A stretch of DNA of 64,000 nucleotides from Candidatus Bathyarchaeia archaeon. GTDB lineage: Archaea; Thermoproteota; Bathyarchaeia; Bathyarchaeales; Bathyarchaeaceae. Numbering within the stretch: the stretch's first letter is position 1; the number at the start of each line of letters is the position of its first letter. Positions 1,898-54,958 of the stretch are shown here, piece after piece. The notes beneath the pieces were generated by a model. The model saw nothing but the letters and a program-made list of their open reading frames with translations. It had not been told where the DNA came from and did no database searches. The translations under genes were made by a program, and so were the position numbers. Location of the stretch: positions 396,925 to 460,924 of the forward strand of contig DATETJ010000009.1 in NCBI GenBank assembly GCA_035283685.1, given 5' to 3'.

Positions 1898-2502
1898 CTC
1901 AAGTTCCACCTCCTTCTCGTCCTAATCTATATTCTCGATCAACTGAAGACTCCCTTAAAGCCAGATTTTTATATTCTCGGGATTTTTATGATTTTTATAT
2001 ATTTAATTGCCCTGCTCGTGGCATAAAATACTTTATGCCCTGAAATTTAGATGAACAACTAACAGCAATCTTTTGATGTCAAAGTAGCAGGTTTGTTCAA
2101 AATTGTGTCGTAACTCCGATAATTCAAACAAGCATTGGAACTTATTCCGTTGACGGGTCAATGTCAATTTCTTGATACGTTGATCCAGTTGACCCTGTAA
2201 CGGTCAGCTAGTAGATGTTGATACTCTTTAGTGAAGAATTCTCGCACCTTGATTTTTCGTTCCTCTGAAAGGAAAGAAGAGTCGACACGGTTGAGGCTGA
2301 GTCAAAAAAGTTCTGGAATCGTGAAATCGAGCTTGACAACATTGAAAGTGGCTTTCACCAACATTGAAGCGCCCCAAACTCACGAAAACAGAGCCGGAAA
2401 CAACTGTCACAAACAAAACTGAACTCAAAACACAAACAGAACAGGCTCAGCCCAGCCTCAAGAAATTTTCACACACTCATACTAATAGGTAGAAACCTTC
2501 AA
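1898..2502. other. non-coding interval with a hairpin and gene debris
   Basis: No convincing gene is seen in about 600 nt. The right side of the methyltransferase promoter is A/T-rich (1965-2005). An imperfect inverted repeat has arms at 2147-2161 and 2189-2203 (12 of 15 positions pair). On the minus strand, around 2110-2225, a short frame interrupted by stops reads LTVTGSTGSTYQEIDIDPST, typical of extracellular archaeal proteins, so this is probably the remnant of a lost surface-protein gene. Confidence 0.4.
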
Positions 2503-2588: not shown

Positions 2589-3920
2589 TTACAATTGCTT
2601 TGAGTGTATTTTCTTTTTCTTCTTGAGTGTGAAATAGAAGACGACCATGAAGGCGAGTGTGGAAGCAAATAGGGAGAGGTTGGCGCTTGGAAACTCCGGT
2701 ACACTTGGAGGTGCAGAAGCGAACACTGCGTGCAGACTGTAGTCCTTGGTCATTGTGAGGCTGATGGGATTGAACGACCCAATATTGGCGCCTGGAGGCA
2801 GTTCCCAGTGATCAAAGTAGTAGCCAACGTTTGGCGTAGCTGTCACACTTACCGTGGCTCCAACAATATACGTGTGACTTCCCGGCGACGGGTTGGTGGT
2901 TCCACCTGTAGTCGTGGTAATAGTCAAGGTGTATCCTTGTCCAAATTTCTGAACACGATGGTTGGAAGTGTCTGCCACGTACACGTTTCCTGAACCATCA
3001 ACTGCAACACCTGCAGGGTACCTGAATTGGCCGTCGCCAGAGCCCAAACCACCCCACTTGGTTATGAAAGAGCCAGAACCAGTGAACTTCTGGACACGGT
3101 GATTGAAATAATCTGCCACGTACACATCTCCTGAACCATCAACAGCGATGCCGCGAGGCGCTGAGAAAAAGCCGTCGCCAGAACCATAACTGCCCCACTT
3201 GGTTAGAAAGGTTACAAGGGAGCCTGAGACAGCAAACTTTTGAACACGATTATTGCTATTGTCTACCACGTACACGTTTCCCGAGCTGTCAACTGCAACG
3301 CCAGCTGGAAAGCTGAACTGCCCGTCGCCTGTGCCACTGCTGCCCCATTTCGTTACGAAGCCGCCAGAACTATTGAACTTCTGAATACGATTATTGCTTG
3401 TGTCAGAAACGTAGACGTTTCCTGAACCATCAACAGCAACATTCGAAGGACCATAAAATTGACCATCCCCAGAGCCAAAGCTTCCCCATTTTAGCATGAA
3501 ACTGCCAGAGCTATCAAACTTCTGAACTCGATGGTTGTTGTCATCGGCTACGTACACATTTCCCGAGCCGTCGATGGCGACGCCCAGAGAACGGTCGAAC
3601 TGTCCATCGCCGGAACCTTGAGTGCCCCATTTCAGGATGAAGCTTCCAGAAGTGGTAAACTTTTGAACGCGGTAACCGTACAGTTCGCTTATGTACACGT
3701 TTCCTGAGCCATCGGCAGCAATACCGTAAGAATAGTTGAATTGTCCGTCTCCGGAGCCATTACTTCCCCATTTCAGGATGAATAGGTATGATTGAGCGGA
3801 GACTGGATTGATCACACCCAAGAAAAGAACGGTGAACAGAAAAGCGGCACCTGAAAATCTGATCCTACGAGAATAACAACCAATCATACTCTCTCTGCCC
3901 ACTTTGTGTTGTGGCATCAT
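2589..3920 (-). CDS. secreted NHL-repeat beta-propeller protein with C-terminal anchor
   Basis: A 443-residue protein with a signal peptide (hydrophobic FSGAAFLFTVLFLGVI, cleavage near VSA-QS), then seven tandem NHL units of about 47 residues each, with the repeated pattern KWGSxGSGDGQF...GVAVDGSGNVYVAD..NHRVQKF: a six- or seven-bladed propeller. A Thr/Pro-rich module follows with the pattern TTTGGTTNPSPGSHTY. The C-terminus is PEFPS, a hydrophobic helix and KKKKK, like archaeal PEF-CTERM sorting tails recognised by archaeosortases. ATGs at 3920, 3917 and 3887 are possible; the one at 3887 gives the most typical signal peptide. The protein probably sits on the cell surface and binds protein or glycan. 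A tRNA-like element lies 127 nt upstream. Confidence 0.9.
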   Translation of the reverse strand: MMPQHKVGRESMIGCYSRRIRFSGAAFLFTVLFLGVINPVSAQSYLFILKWGSNGSGDGQFNYSYGIAADGSGNVYISELYGYRVQKFTTSGSFILKWGTQGSGDGQFDRSLGVAIDGSGNVYVADDNNHRVQKFDSSGSFMLKWGSFGSGDGQFYGPSNVAVDGSGNVYVSDTSNNRIQKFNSSGGFVTKWGSSGTGDGQFSFPAGVAVDSSGNVYVVDNSNNRVQKFAVSGSLVTFLTKWGSYGSGDGFFSAPRGIAVDGSGDVYVADYFNHRVQKFTGSGSFITKWGGLGSGDGQFRYPAGVAVDGSGNVYVADTSNHRVQKFGQGYTLTITTTTGGTTNPSPGSHTYIVGATVSVTATPNVGYYFDHWELPPGANIGSFNPISLTMTKDYSLHAVFASAPPSVPEFPSANLSLFASTLAFMVVFYFTLKKKKKIHSKQL

Positions 3921-4046
3921 TCTTATTAGATTTGCAGTGTCTGTATTCTATACAATGAATCCAGAAAACAATAACGCTCTTAGCAATAACACCCAAAATC
4001 CCTCAACGTCGCCAAGACAAAACCCCGAGGGTGGTTTTTCCATAGG

Positions 4047-4106
4047 TGGTGCGGGGGGTGGGACTTGAACTCACCGAGGAGTGGCGATGTCTCCACTGTC
4101 TCCCGC
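4047..4106 (-). repeat. tRNA-like element 2 (60-nt minihelix)
   Basis: Minus-strand reading: GCGGGAG, a perfect hairpin AGTGG/CCACT, a linker, then GTGAG-TTCAAGT-CCCAC as a near-perfect T-arm, then CCCCCGC-A-CCA. The acceptor-like ends GCGGG and CCCGC pair. The T-arm, acceptor strand and CCA match the true tRNA-Leu at 8615-8702 closely. There is no D-arm or anticodon arm, so it is not a functional tRNA. A T-rich tract (forward 4115-4120) lies on its 5' side. The rest of 3921-4280 holds no gene. Confidence 0.6.
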
Positions 4107-4280: not shown

Positions 4281-7200
4281 CTACCAGTTTTTGGTTTTGT
4301 ATCTGTTTTCTTCCCAGATGTTGCCTGTGCCTGTCATGTCCCAGTATAGGTCAAACTCTTCGTTGGTTAGAGCCTTGTTTTGCTCAATTTTGTTGTAATT
4401 AGAGTTTATTCCTTCGTCTTGGGCAACTGCTATGCCACACATCCGGTTTTTGGCAGCTACGTTTTTTTCGATGATGTTGCTGGAGGAAGCGAAAAGGTAT
4501 ATCCCATGGTTGTTTTCCTTAGCTTGGTTTTCCTCGATTTTGTTATTGTCTGACCCATAGAGAATGATGCCGTACACGCCGTTGTTTGTTGCTTCATTAT
4601 GTTCGACCTTGTTGTAATTTGAATTGTAGAGGATGATGCCGCCGCGTTGGTTGCGCGTGGCTATATTTTCTTCGAGAGCATTATGCTCCGACCCATCAAC
4701 TACGATGCCCCAGCGGATATTGCCAACCAACGTGTTTGCTTCCACCACATTGTAATCAGATTCCACAAGGGTTATTCCACGATAGTTGCCTTCAACCATG
4801 TTCTCTGTGATCTTGTTATTGAAAGAGTTGTGTAAGACTATGCCGTCTTCGACGTTGAAAGATGCAGTGTTCATTTGCACAATGGTGTCATATGATTCTA
4901 CCAGATGAATGCCACAATAAGAGTTGGAAATTGCCAAGTTGTCTTCTAACTTGTTGTCATAAGAAAACCATATGGAGATTCCTTCAAAATTGTCACTTGC
5001 AATGTTGTCCAGAAATTTATTGTAGTCAGAGTCTGAAACCATGATCCCTACAGTGTTGCTGGTTGCATTGTTAGAGGAAATTTCGTTATTTTCTGAAAAG
5101 TTGCGGATGTCTAAGCCATAACTGTTGTACATCACTCTATTTCCTTTAACTTTGCTGAAACTTGATTCGTCGAGCACTATTCCATTAAAATTGCTTACCG
5201 CTATGTTGCCCTCAATCGTGTTGTGATTTGAGTGGACAACGAGGACGCCGTCCCAAGTATGGCTGTGGGCGATATTCCCAGAGACAGTGTTGTAGTCGGA
5301 ATACCATAAGGAGATGCCACGCTCACCATTTGAAATCAGTTGGTTATCTTGTACGATGTTGTGGTTCGAGGAGTCATGGAGCCTAATACCCTCCCAATTG
5401 TTAAAGAACACAATGTTTCCTCGCAGATGATTTTCAGTTGAGTTGAAAAGCGAGATGCCGTTGTTATTGCTGCTTACTACGTTGTTTGACACCAAGTTGT
5501 GGTCATTGTCTTTCCACAAGACGATGCCCTCCTCTCCATTTCCAATCACCACATTATGTGATACTTCGTTATTATCGCTCGACTCTACCAGTGCGATGCC
5601 CTGCGCATTGTTGCTTGCAGTATTACCAGAGATAATGTTGTATGAAGACTGGGAGAGGACTATACCGACAGCTTCATTGTCGCTTGCCACGTTGTCCAAC
5701 ACTTTATTGTAATTTGATGAAGCAAAGAAGTTTATGCCGGCGAAGTTTGAAGCTGCTATGTTTTGGCTAACTAAATTGTGGTGAGATTCTCCTAACCAGA
5801 TGCCAGCCCAATTATTCGTTACTGTGTTATTTCCTATCTTAGAGTTTTTGGAACGATGGAGGTGTATACCAGCGTAGGCATTTGAGGTTATTATGTTTCC
5901 TTCCACACAATTGTTATCAGATTCCCATAGTGCGATGCCAATATCACCATTTGAAGTTACTATGTTTTCTTGTATTATGTTGTCATTCGAGGAGTCATGG
6001 AGACTAATACCCCACCAACTGTTAAAGGATGCATTGTTTCCCTGGAGATAATTTTCCGATGAGTTGAAAAGCATGATCCCGAAGTTATTGTGGCTCGCTA
6101 CGTTGTCTGACACCATGTTGTACTTGGGAGAAACTACGTTTTTCCACAAGGCGATACCCTCCGCTCCATTTTCAGTTGCCACGTTATTTGACACAATGTT
6201 GTGGTTGCTTGCGTCTCCCAGAGCAATGCCTTGCCAACTGTTGCCAGAAACATTGTTATATGTTATGGCGTTGTTGCTTGAATTTATTAACCATATACCT
6301 GCGTGACTGTTCAACGTTACATTATTGTCGCGGATGATGTTGTTGTTTGAGTGGTAGTGTTCGATGCCGGCCCATTCGTTTAGAGTTAGTATGTTGCCTT
6401 CAATAATATCCCCATTAGAGTAGTAAAGAGACAGACCACCCAACCCGTTTTGAATCGTAAACCTGTTGATCCTCACGTTGTCAGCAGTTATATGAATTAC
6501 GTGATCAGTTGCCCCACCGTCAACAATCGTGGTTTCAGAATCTTCACCCACAAGGGTTAAAGATTTGTACAGAAAGACGTTTTCGTAATATATTCCAGCA
6601 TCAACTTGGATTGTGTGTCCGTCCAAAGTTTCAGGAGCATCTATTGCTTCCTGAATCCATGCATAGTCCAAACCCGTGTCAACATTATGGACCACATGTG
6701 GAGTTGACGTGGAAATGTACAACGAGACATAAGTCTCATAGGGTGTTCTTGTACTGTCGTCCCATACGCCCACAAGTAGGTTTGTCCTTATGACTTGGCC
6801 TGGGGTGAAGGCCCAGTCATAGCCATCGTCTGAGTTAAGTTCTTTCCTAAATTCATACCAGTAGTAGGTTCCATCGTGAGTTGCTGCACCTTCAACGTTG
6901 TTCTCTCCAAGTGGTGACGCACTAACGTCATTGTACCATCTGGTTTCGTCCCAACCGTACAAGTCGAATGTTGCGTTGTCGAATTCGACGAAGCTAAAGT
7001 CACTGTGAGCCCAGAGTAGAGGGGGTTCCCCGATCCAATCCCAGAAATAGTCGATATATCCTCCGTCAAATGGATCGATATCCCCAGCAGGCCATTCCAC
7101 TCTATACAGGATGTAAAGCCATGTGTTGTCATTCTTTATCCAAACCCTGGCTGAAACTGTTCCAGGACCTACGTGCCACTCCAATAAGGTTAGGTCAACG

Positions 7201-7388
7201 GGAATCGTATCCGACCACTCTTCAGCTGTCGTCATTTTGCCATCAAAGGTAACGGCGATACTTAACCAGCCACTTGTAACGTTTACATTTGCTTGGGCTA
7301 ATTGAATGTTAAATGCTAATGTCAACATGCCAACAATGAGCAGTGTCAGCATTGTTCCAGAAACTGCTTTCTTTTCCAGTTTTCTCAC
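4281..7388 (-). CDS. large secreted parallel beta-helix (NosD-like) surface protein
   Basis: A 1035-residue protein. Residues 10-33 form a signal peptide (MLTLLIVGMLTLAFNIQLAQA). Residues 36-235 resemble a CBM9/DOMON-like beta-sandwich (SIAVTFDGKMTTAEEWSD, Trp/Asp-rich strands). From about residue 245 to the end there are some thirty right-handed beta-helix coils of 22-24 residues with the pattern NxxxxNxxxxxxGIxLxxSxxNxIxxN, as in NosD/pectate-lyase-like repeats. There is no C-terminal anchor; it ends ENRYKTKNW. It is probably exported and attached non-covalently, with a glycan- or surface-binding role. A second tRNA-like element lies 171 nt upstream. Protein-level relatedness to the surface protein at 55-58 kb is clear in the helix part. 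Confidence 0.9.
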   Translation of the reverse strand: MRKLEKKAVSGTMLTLLIVGMLTLAFNIQLAQANVNVTSGWLSIAVTFDGKMTTAEEWSDTIPVDLTLLEWHVGPGTVSARVWIKNDNTWLYILYRVEWPAGDIDPFDGGYIDYFWDWIGEPPLLWAHSDFSFVEFDNATFDLYGWDETRWYNDVSASPLGENNVEGAATHDGTYYWYEFRKELNSDDGYDWAFTPGQVIRTNLLVGVWDDSTRTPYETYVSLYISTSTPHVVHNVDTGLDYAWIQEAIDAPETLDGHTIQVDAGIYYENVFLYKSLTLVGEDSETTIVDGGATDHVIHITADNVRINRFTIQNGLGGLSLYYSNGDIIEGNILTLNEWAGIEHYHSNNNIIRDNNVTLNSHAGIWLINSSNNAITYNNVSGNSWQGIALGDASNHNIVSNNVATENGAEGIALWKNVVSPKYNMVSDNVASHNNFGIMLFNSSENYLQGNNASFNSWWGISLHDSSNDNIIQENIVTSNGDIGIALWESDNNCVEGNIITSNAYAGIHLHRSKNSKIGNNTVTNNWAGIWLGESHHNLVSQNIAASNFAGINFFASSNYNKVLDNVASDNEAVGIVLSQSSYNIISGNTASNNAQGIALVESSDNNEVSHNVVIGNGEEGIVLWKDNDHNLVSNNVVSSNNNGISLFNSTENHLRGNIVFFNNWEGIRLHDSSNHNIVQDNQLISNGERGISLWYSDYNTVSGNIAHSHTWDGVLVVHSNHNTIEGNIAVSNFNGIVLDESSFSKVKGNRVMYNSYGLDIRNFSENNEISSNNATSNTVGIMVSDSDYNKFLDNIASDNFEGISIWFSYDNKLEDNLAISNSYCGIHLVESYDTIVQMNTASFNVEDGIVLHNSFNNKITENMVEGNYRGITLVESDYNVVEANTLVGNIRWGIVVDGSEHNALEENIATRNQRGGIILYNSNYNKVEHNEATNNGVYGIILYGSDNNKIEENQAKENNHGIYLFASSSNIIEKNVAAKNRMCGIAVAQDEGINSNYNKIEQNKALTNEEFDLYWDMTGTGNIWEENRYKTKNW

Positions 7389-7558
7389 TTCTCCTTCCGA
7401 CTGTAGGATGCTTCATCGCCCAAGAAACAAGAGACTTGGCAGTTAAACACATGGCTGCAATCCGATTTATGCCTTGTGAAACAATATTCGATAGAGAACA
7501 TCTAGGCGGCATGGTCAACATTACCCGGGTCCGAACTCCCCGAGGGTTTTTCCATAGG

Positions 7559-7609
7559 TGGTGCGGGGGATAGGACTTGAACCCTCAGAGAGCTGGCGAT
7601 GTCTCCCGC
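7559..7609 (-). repeat. tRNA-like element 4 (51 nt)
   Basis: Minus strand: GCGGGAG, hairpin ACATCGCCAGCTC, then GAGGG-TTCAAGT-CCTAT as a weakened T-arm, then CCCCCGC-A-CCA. The ends pair as GCGGG/CCCGC. The 3' flank CCTATGGAAAAAC is shared with element 2 and, with one change, with the real tRNA-Leu flank. The 5' side shares a 33-nt identical block with element 3. It sits in the 350-nt gap before the beta-helix gene, which otherwise holds only an A/T-rich promoter-like zone. Confidence 0.6.
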
Positions 7610-8614: not shown

Positions 8615-8702
8615 TGGTGCGGGGGGTGGGACTTGAACCCACGAAGGCCTTCGCCAGAGGATCTTAAGTCCTCCCCCTTAGACCTGGCTCGGGTACCCCC
8701 GC
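8615..8702 (-). tRNA. tRNA-Leu(UAA) with encoded CCA
   Basis: Complete class II tRNA, 88 nt including the genomically encoded CCA. Acceptor GCGGGGG pairs with CCCCCGC; D-arm ACCCGAGCCAGGTC; anticodon stem GAGGA/TCCTC with loop CTTAAGA (anticodon TAA); long variable arm TGGCGAAGGCCTTC; T-arm GTGGG-TTCAAGT-CCCAC; discriminator A. No intron. Its T-arm and acceptor strand are the parent-like sequence for the tRNA-like elements at 1141, 2503, 4047 and 7559. Confidence 0.97.
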
Positions 8703-8821: not shown

Positions 8822-9140
8822 ACATAGAAGGGGTAGACCACACACATGCGACCCAGACTACTACTTCTGAACACAGCCAGCTCGGTATTATGACTTGTTC
8901 TAAGTGGAAGCTAATAACATCTGAAAAGAAACTCGCCTCCAACATTCAAGAAGCTGTTGGGCAAACCCTTCAGAGTCAACAACAACTCCAAAACAGCACA
9001 GCCATGAAGGGCGTTGATGTCACCGGGAACACTCTGACGACGATGTCCACACAGCTTCAGCCGCTGATGCGTTCCAACAATGGTAGAAGAAGGCTAAAGG
9101 GAAATGACACCTTCTTCTTCTGAAATTTCTCTTCCTGCAG
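8822..9140 (+). repeat. dispersed repeat, copy A
   Basis: One of four related 320-440 bp sequences (others at 23453, 37379 and, inverted, 52062). Ordered blocks: ACATAGAAG..., ACTACTACTTCTGA, CTCGGTATTATGACT..TTCTAAG, CTAATAACATCTGAAAAG, CAACATTCAAGAAG, CAACAACAACTCC, GTTGATGTCACCGGGAAC, ACGACGATGTCCACACAG, CTTCAGCCGC and the closing hairpin GAAGAAGG...CCTTCTTC. Copy A keeps an open frame (8890-9123) but without ribosome-binding site or recognisable domain; its left stem is degraded. It fills most of the 870-nt gap between 8403 and 9275 together with tRNA-Leu. Confidence 0.8.
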
Positions 9141-9274
9141 AACTGCCAACATTTAGCCGTGAGTAAGCATTATATCATTGTTTCTTATTTTACCCCTAGT
9201 CTCTGAAAAACATAACCACGAGCGTTATGAGGAGCCGCCACGGCTTCTCTGAGAGAGTTTAGGAAAGCATTGAA

Positions 9275-23366: not shown

Positions 23367-23452
23367 ATCCTGCTCCGAAAGGGCAATTATGCAAAACACA
23401 AACATAAAACCCTTAACATACACCAAAAAAGAAGAAGCAAACAAACACGTGG

Positions 23453-23793
23453 GTGCAGACTACTCTTGGGCAGAAACAAGCTCGGTATTATTACTGTTTC
23501 TAAGCGTGAGTTAATAACATCTGAAACAGAAACCGGTCCTCACACGCCGTCCTTGACGAAGCCAGGTCCAACCAGTGACGAAGCCCTGACACAGACCAGC
23601 GGGCAAGCAGAACCCAAATCACCATACAAAAACCCAAACACACCCCAAGAAACAACGCGCAGACTCGTTGATGTCACTTAGAACACTCTGACGACGACAT
23701 CCATACAGCTTCAGCCGCACAACACACTCAACATGGTAGAAGAAGGCTAAAGGGAAATGGCGCCTTCTTCTTCTGAAATCTCTTTCCCCGCAC
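23453..23793 (+). repeat. dispersed repeat, copy B (with partial duplicate to 23862)
   Basis: It aligns with copies A, C and D through GCAGACTACT, CTCGGTATTATTACTG, TTCTAAGCG.GAGTTAATAAC, then a copy-specific 120-nt insertion, then GTTGATGTCACTTAGAACAC, ACAGCTTCAGCCGC, and the GAAGAAGG...CCTTCTTC hairpin. It lacks the second stem. Immediately downstream, 23808-23862 repeats the block GATGTCACTAGGAAC...CACACAGCTCTTCCCGC a second time in diverged form, so the right half is partly duplicated in tandem. It occupies the 550-nt gap between acetoacetyl-CoA synthetase and the OB-fold gene. Confidence 0.75.
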
Positions 23794-23920
23794 AACAGCC
23801 ATGCTGGATGATGATGTCACTAGGAACAGCTTGACGATGACGCCCACACAGCTCTTCCCGCGATTTCAGGGACATCGAGATTACTTTATCCTATTCAGAG
23901 GCAATGTCCAGCCGGAGCCT

Positions 23921-37272: not shown

Positions 37273-37378
37273 AAGCCAGATCATGTGAACAATGCAGACC
37301 GCGTCAATGTCCCAGTTAAAGCTCTTCGGACAGCTTGTTCTACAAGCTTAGAGAGCACATGAGAGAACTACACGGCGA

Positions 37379-37821
37379 ACATAGAAGTAGTAGTCAACGT
37401 ACACGCGGCACAGACTACTACTTCTAAACCTGAAGCACCTTGGTATTATTACCATTTCTAAGCGAAAGTTAATAACATCTGAAACAGAAACCACCCTCAC
37501 AACATCACCTTCAACATCCAAGAAGTTGTTGTGGCAAACCCTTCAACGTCAACAACAACTTCAAAACGCTTGATCACTCAACGCCACACAGTCTGCGCTT
37601 GCATGTTCAACTACAACTGTCCAAACCACTGCCCTCAACCACAGCGTCTGAGCGTTGATGTCGCCGGGAACAGTCGTATGACGATGTCCACACAGCTTCA
37701 GCCACACCCACACGTGATGATGAAACAATAGCGCAAGTCAACTTCATCACGCACACAGTCGCAACCACTGGAGAAAAAGACCTTAATGGTCAGTCGCCTT
37801 CTTCTCCTGAAGTGCGCCTCC
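37379..37821 (+). repeat. dispersed repeat, copy C
   Basis: The longest copy. Stem 1 is perfect here: AGAAGTAGTAGTC pairs with GACTACTACTTCT across a 20-nt loop. The core CTTGGTATTATTACC..TTCTAAGCG..AGTTAATAAC follows, then stem 2 (CAAGAAGTTGTTG / CAACAACAACTTC, 10-bp perfect core), then a 90-nt copy-specific insert, GTTGATGTCGCCGGGAAC and ACAGCTTCAGCCAC. The right hairpin region is rearranged, but CGCCTTCTTCTCCTGAAG at its end matches the usual CACCTTCTTCTTCTGAAA. The interval 37273-37960 before metG contains no other feature. Confidence 0.8.
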
Positions 37822-37961
37822 CAAGCGCTGAGGAACCTGAGCACCTGCCAGTCACAGTTCAGATAACCCAAGCCAGCATATAGTCGTTACAAATCGAGAC
37901 TCCGTTGCGCTTAAGTACAAGCGCAGCAACATGTTAAAAAGCGAATTGGAGGTGCACTGCA

Positions 37962-52051: not shown

Positions 52052-52061
52052 GTCCCAGCGG

Positions 52062-52400
52062 CTGCGGGAAAACAAATTTCAAAAGAAGAAGGTGCCATTT
52101 CCCTTTAGCCTTCTTCTACCATGTTGCAGGTGCGTTATGCGACTGAAGCTGTATGGATATCGTCGTCAGAGTGTTCCCGGTGACATCAACGAGCGGAATG
52201 TTACGCGTGGAGGGGCTGTGGCTGTTTTGAAGTTGTTGTTGACTAGCGTAGTGCTTTGTTACAACAACTTCTTGAATGTTGGAGGCGAGTTTCTTTTCAG
52301 ATGTTATTAACTTCCGCTTAGAATCAGTAATAATACCGAGCTCGTTTCTGCTCAGAAGTAGTGGTCTGTGCCTCGTGTTTGTTGACTACTACTTCTATGT
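52062..52400 (-). repeat. dispersed repeat, copy D (inverted)
   Basis: Minus-strand orientation. From right to left: ACATAGAAGTAGTAGTC with GACCACTACTTCTGA (stem 1 with one mismatch), CTCGGTATTATTACTG, TTCTAAGCGGAAGTTAATAAC, CCTCCAACATTCAAGAAG, stem 2 (GAAGTTGTTG / CAACAACTTC, perfect), GTTGATGTCACCGGGAACAC, CAGCTTCAGTCGC and the hairpin GAAGAAGG...CCTTCTTC. It fills nearly the whole 472-nt gap between lpd and hypD. Because it lies in the opposite orientation to A-C, it is an element rather than a tandem duplication. Confidence 0.8.
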
Positions 52401-52523
52401 AGGTTGCTGGCTGTGTGGGTGTTGATGCCCAATCGTTCTTAGTGTCATCAACAAGTTTGAAGACATTTTCCTCTTTTTTGTATGGTTTTTTGTTGGTGCA
52501 ATGAAGTTCTTGGTTCTTTGGTG

Positions 52524-54689: not shown

Positions 54690-54715
54690 CCAGCAACAGC
54701 CTTCCTATGGGCTTT

Positions 54716-54958
54716 CTAGTTAGAAGTAGTGGTTGTCGCCTCATACTTATTGAGGATTTCGTTCCACAACGCCAATGTTTCCTCAGCTGCTTTTGCGTCC
54801 AAAACCTCGATAGCGTAGCCAGCGTGCACAATCACGTATTCGCCGATTTTTGCCTCAACCAACGACACGTTTACGTCTCGCATGGTTCCAGCTCCAAAAT
54901 CCACTCTAGCCATGTCGCCGTGAATCTCAACCACTTTGGCTGGAATTGCGAGACACAT
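54716..54958 (-). CDS. hypC: hydrogenase maturation chaperone HypC
   Basis: An 80-residue HypC/HybG protein. MCLAIPAKVVEI is the N-terminal Cys that binds the large subunit and HypD; VNVSLVEAKIGEYVIVHAGYAIEVLD is the OB-like body. The C-terminal tail KYEATTTTSN is unusual for the family and resembles the left end of the dispersed repeat (see findings). It is the first gene of hypCBAD. Confidence 0.95.
   Translation of the reverse strand: MCLAIPAKVVEIHGDMARVDFGAGTMRDVNVSLVEAKIGEYVIVHAGYAIEVLDAKAAEETLALWNEILNKYEATTTTSN

Follow-up and report, generated by a model that had tools for sequence, protein, structure and literature searches.

A family of modular intergenic repeats was identified in the genome of an uncultured Bathyarchaeota archaeon (2,280,325 bases in 12 contigs; the HypD protein encoded in the window shares 79% identity with records named Candidatus Bathyarchaeota). 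We interpret it, with a probability of roughly 57%, as an old and lineage-specific family of non-autonomous modular repeats, whose design resembles that of BOX elements. It comprises at least 76 loci (29.8 kb; a lower bound, the loci having been counted in the genome stretches around copies) and covers at least 1.3% of the 2.3 Mb genome. The window, i.e., the whole stretch of 64,000 nucleotides that was analysed (G000:C9:396925-460924), carries four copies and a fifth, decayed one.

Copies in the window

The sequence-only reading had placed four copies at 8822-9140 (+), 23453-23793 (+), 37379-37821 (+) and 52062-52400 (-), sharing the same blocks in the same order. Inspection of the window sequence confirmed the positions, strands and block order of all four, with two corrections: (i) copies 2, 3 and 4 continue beyond these bounds, and (ii) the copy at 23453 lacks the left arm of stem 1 and carries an X block in place of stem 2. 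Upstream of 52062-52400 lies an E module, which reaches 52455, and downstream of 23453-23793 a J module extends to 23852. The copies are composed as follows (the module letters are described in the next section):

8822..9144, + strand: copy 1; A 8822-8880, B core 8881-8933, C hairpin, D 9013-9062, T hairpin 9080-9144
23446..23852, + strand: copy 2; half of A, B core 23481-23534, X block, D 23667-23716, T hairpin 23733-23797, J 23803-23852
37378..37829, + strand: copy 3; A hairpin 37378-37438, B core 37439-37492, C hairpin, F at about 37582-37627, D 37654-37703, G hairpin at about 37706-37765 and a decayed T 37767-37829
52058..52455, - strand: copy 4; E 52399-52455, A hairpin 52341-52401, B core 52288-52340, C hairpin (variant loop), D 52141-52190 and T hairpin 52058-52122
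2336..2487, + strand: fifth copy, decayed; R-Y-Z 3' unit only

The copies align with one another beyond short matches. Since their blocks are approximately 80-94% identical and a BLAST comparison of the copies 8822-9140 and 52062-52400 gives E = 1.8e-79, chance resemblance is excluded. The fifth copy, recognized by BLAST with the R-Y-Z consensus and by reading of the sequence, has CACTCATACTAATAGG at its end and adjoins a repeat resembling the 3' half of a tRNA. There are three such direct repeats (2497-2550, 4033-4094 and 7545-7606), situated near a genuine tRNA-Leu gene (8615-8702, - strand) and flanking an NHL-repeat gene (2589-3920) and a NosD/beta-helix gene (4281-7388); they resemble the scars that tRNA-targeted integration leaves at attachment sites. 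A separate 41-nt stretch (54713-54753), lying apart from other modules, matches part of module A at 73% identity and is possibly a decayed fragment of that module, or a chance match.

Genome-wide family and order of its modules

A whole-genome BLAST search with the copy 8822-9140 as the query returned 65 matches (best non-self E = 1.8e-79), and a covariance model of module T found 79 matches in the genome. The family thus extends far beyond the four window copies, all of which are real members of it. Its elements occur on both strands and on many contigs, in gaps between genes, in agreement with the earlier description of a dispersed, intergenic and modular repeat. The regular spacing of 14-15 kb noted in that description proved to be a coincidence of the window, the spacing across the genome being irregular. 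The median length of an element is approximately 390 bp (range 84-905 bp).

About a dozen conserved modules were distinguished by alignment and flank reading. They follow a colinear, one-strand chain, [B-X]-E-A-B-C-(b)F-D/J-G-T, which is often continued by R-Y-Z; the order is nearly fixed and strand-consistent, and each copy is a mosaic of these modules. Modules A, C, T, E, H and G are hairpins, whose stems differ from one another (their arm pairs include AGAAGTAGTAGTC/GACTACTACTTCT, GAAGTTGTTGT/ACAACAACTTC and GAAGAAGG/CCTTCTTC). Module B is the core CTCGGTATTATTACTGNTTCTAAGCGGAAGTTAATAACATCTGAAA. The 180-bp R-Y-Z unit, which had been overlooked in the sequence-only reading, ends many copies and consists of (i) R, in which a unit of roughly 21-22 nt (CAACATTAAACGTCACGCATAC) is repeated in a row, (ii) Y, an A/C-rich block with kinship to X, and (iii) Z, the terminal ACAAAAAAATTTTTCAGCACTCATACTAACCCTCT, which carries an A7T5 tract. 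About 40 copies of this unit are present, mostly at full length, either after T or alone. Two of the stand-alone copies (L187 and L191) share an extra upstream block (TTTCAAACCAACATCCA..CGACTTCCAGCAACATT-like), and therefore more module types exist than those named here.

The commonest junctions between modules are YZ (33), AB (31), RY (29), DT (28) and TR (27). Copies start variably (A in 22, B in 14, others in the remainder) and end mostly in Z (33) or T (18), so that variable 5' starts are combined with a shared 3' end (the T hairpin or R-Y-Z); internal modules are optional as well. Sequence kinship was found within the groups E/D/J, A/C, C/H and X/Y, and duplication was thus one of the ways in which the chain grew. 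The hexamer CAACAT stands at the start of modules A, C, T and R; in the elements its frequency is raised seven-fold (5.7 per kb, vs. 0.8 per kb per strand in all genome DNA examined). This common joint suggests that modules may have been exchanged by recombination at it.

Gene neighbourhood and terminator-like modules

The orientation of the elements was compared with that of the flanking genes, using home-made gene calls with RNA genes added by hand. In co-directional gaps, copies run with the direction of the genes in a ratio of 26:9 (p = 0.006), which counts against a purely neutral insert, as such an insert would not show this bias. Z ends are frequently located 60-90 bp ahead of a start codon, on the upstream side of a TATA-like box. 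Addition of the RNA genes weakened the idea that Z points at promoters without exception: in co-directional gaps Z faces a start in a ratio of 13:6, which is not significant alone.

Several elements neighbour genes for stable RNAs. At the 16S rRNA locus (L071; G000:C9:514300-520800), two inverted elements flank the gene with both Z ends directed towards it, so that its 3' end, too, is faced by a Z end, and at four further loci (L188, L182, L063 and L084) Z ends face the 3' ends of the genes for 23S rRNA, RNase P RNA, tRNA-Ser and tRNA-Gln.

Two modules have features of transcription terminators. In 42 of the 49 T modules the hairpin is followed by a T run, and 36 of the 44 Z units contain a T run of at least 4 together with an A run of at least 5, a combination found in 0.8% of random 60-mers; in these 36 units the T runs can be read on both strands. 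Oligo-T tracts are established archaeal terminators, and it is reasonable to regard T and Z as putative terminators or insulators.

The same observations can be read as the signature of a host-functional cassette for transcription punctuation or insulation, whose copies, irrespective of how they arose, selection would maintain in the roles of 3' UTR hairpins, terminators (T and Z) and promoter-upstream spacers. The bias towards the direction of transcription in co-directional gaps, the nearly invariant T stem with its following T runs, the bidirectional A/T runs of Z and the position of Z ends near downstream gene starts at many loci, or facing the 3' ends of RNA genes, are all consistent with this reading. 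We nevertheless consider it rather unlikely as the main explanation: the family is without a match in any searched relative, the content of its copies is highly variable (84-905 bp), many copies lie between divergent genes, where a terminator is not needed, and the positioning of Z at gene starts falls short of significance by itself.

Folding and coding potential

The sequence-only reading had offered a structured RNA as one option. Here it was considered as a non-coding RNA family transcribed at each locus. Hairpins A and C do fold far better than shuffled sequences (z = -5.1 and -4.2, respectively), the linkers are A/C-rich on one strand, and the module order is strand-consistent. However, core B, the best-conserved block, has zero predicted consensus pairs and thus no consensus fold. 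Substitutions in the stems break pairs rather than compensate for one another. In the A stem 34 of 395 cells are unpaired, 12 changes are compatible on a single side and none is double; in the C stem 31 of 307 cells are unpaired, with 0 double compensatory changes; and in the T stem there is a single double compensatory change. In line with the earlier description, the element matches no known Rfam family: none was found at the gathering score, and nothing convincing appeared at E up to 1. We regard an RNA family as very unlikely.

Across the 49 copies of T, the stem is 98.6% identical, the loop 65% and the flanks 51%. Given this near-identity and the broken pairs, the stems are conserved as sequence, and an RNA fold would account for this no better than protein binding, a role in termination or a recent common ancestor.

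Descent from decayed pseudogene pieces of a repetitive protein is exceedingly improbable: the stems are built of GNN triplets, some frames give plausible repeats (e.g., LGIIT-SK-KLITSE in B), and frame +0 of B has a weak synonymous excess (z = 2.0; BLOSUM z = 2.2), but a six-frame codon substitution test found no consistent frame, the best frame differs from module to module, several frames (including the best one of D) contain conserved stops, modules A and T give no coding signal, and none of the elements showed a long intact ORF.

Possible mobility of the elements

The distribution of the family, i.e., its dispersal, presence on both strands, lineage restriction, mosaic decay and common 3' end, leads us to infer mobility. 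A non-autonomous element, the other option of the sequence-only reading, is the best remaining one, although terminal inverted repeats, target-site duplications and a partner transposase were not found. At the boundaries of the elements no terminal inverted repeats were seen, and the copies have neither a shared left terminus nor a fixed 5' end. Target-site duplications were looked for and do not exceed shuffled pairing (11 loci with shared words of at least 6, vs. 13.9 expected). None of ten tested genes beside or between copies encodes a transposase or site-specific recombinase; all are ordinary genes. Empty sites could not be demonstrated at hypD and MetRS, where the relatives are too distant and the neighbours are not conserved (a different gene lies upstream of the one tested).

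No reverse transcriptase was found in the genome, and retroposition by a resident enzyme was rejected for this reason. Mobilization as REP/BIME-type repeats by a RAYT transposase was considered because short palindromes are clustered between genes, as in REP/BIME repeats (PMC3733652, PMC2817692), and T has GTAG at its hairpin foot, following the tag rule of REPs (PMC3733652). This explanation is extremely unlikely. A search for the Y1 transposase (Y1_Tnp, RAYT) found no such protein in the genome, five control genomes being positive, which refutes a resident RAYT; an extinct one may have existed. Furthermore, in nearly all clusters the modules are arranged head-to-tail, in colinear order on one strand, unlike the alternating orientation of BIMEs, and their stems differ from module to module, unlike those of REP/BIME repeats.

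Distribution outside this genome

The search of related genomes showed a family restricted to this genome among those searched. BLAST gave no match in 40 relatives. The R-Y-Z unit was found in this genome only (27 genomes of the family searched) and not in the 26 others, in which the T model gave two marginal matches near 26 bits, vs. 79 matches here. The core model found merely 5 marginal matches (16-22 bits) in 162 other genomes of the order and none at 1e-4 in 256 other genomes of the class. A pattern search of the GTDB r220 contigs, which may leave out this genome itself, gave no match. No match was obtained in IMG/VR (four module patterns) or in plasmids and phages, and a virus or plasmid origin was rejected.

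Samples of seven relatives (about 400 kb of G012 and smaller stretches of six others) contain almost no intergenic repeats of at least 3 copies. In this genome 64 such intervals (18.9 kb) were found in 346 kb, a sample picked around copies, so that the comparison is biased towards it; in the 64 kb window alone such repeats amount to 1.1 kb. Ordinary archaeal core genes (RadA, FEN1/XPG, 16S, 23S and RNase P RNA) flank the copies, which makes contamination unlikely. As no match was found in the searched relatives, which included no second member of the archaeon's genus, the element probably arose or spread in one genus-level lineage.

Comparison with known repeat systems

The closest in design are the pneumococcal BOX elements, of which the family is not a member. 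BOX elements of Streptococcus pneumoniae and S. suis are multicopy, hairpin-forming repeats of 67-637 bp, built of boxA-boxBn-boxC modules; they are clustered, affect neighbouring genes and are reported to have terminal inverted repeats and target duplications (PMC3049150). The archaeal family shares with them ordered modules, optional or repeated internal units, variable size, hairpins, an intergenic location and many copies. It differs in having about a dozen module types rather than three to six and a 3' unit of tandem repeats with the A7T5 tract, as well as in being archaeal; no sequence relation to BOX was shown, and neither terminal inverted repeats nor target duplications were found.

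Prokaryotic MITEs are likewise short, non-coding, multicopy, intergenic and transposase-less (PMC10969869), and the present elements, being short, intergenic, multicopy and without an ORF, resemble them but lack terminal inverted repeats, target duplications and fixed ends. SPRITE elements, in which a terminator-like hairpin is followed by a T-rich tract near gene ends (PMC3049150), recall module T (a hairpin with a T-rich tail), which is here a single module of a much longer mosaic. A SINE-like retroposon would show a common 3' end with variable 5' truncation; in the present family the 3' ends lie at Z or T and the 5' starts vary, but internal modules are optional too, and no reverse transcriptase was found in the genome.

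Proposed origin and significance

As a lineage-specific, non-autonomous repeat family, the elements may descend from an ancestral unit of roughly 0.9 kb, which would have been copied and spread by a trans-acting enzyme, since lost or unrecognised. Modules would then have been lost, swapped and duplicated via recombination at the short common joints (CAACAT). Copies may have been tolerated in gaps partly through T (hairpin and T-rich tail) and Z (A7T5) acting as terminators; because these modules can presumably terminate transcription, insertion beside a housekeeping gene would be tolerated or even useful.

A bolder proposal, which we advance tentatively and consider quite unlikely, is that the family represents a new class: an archaeal cassette of several hairpins in a set order, multiplying by a mechanism that involves no terminal inverted repeats, no target duplications and no known transposase, and recruited as bidirectional transcription punctuation beside genes for housekeeping proteins and RNAs (among them 16S, 23S and RNase P).

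A few bacteria are known to carry modular small interspersed repeats, and our literature search yielded no account of a BOX-like family for Bathyarchaeia. The family raises two questions: by what means an ordered mosaic can multiply when it has neither terminal repeats nor a recognised transposase, and whether the element has come to contribute to the separation of transcripts in this archaeon.
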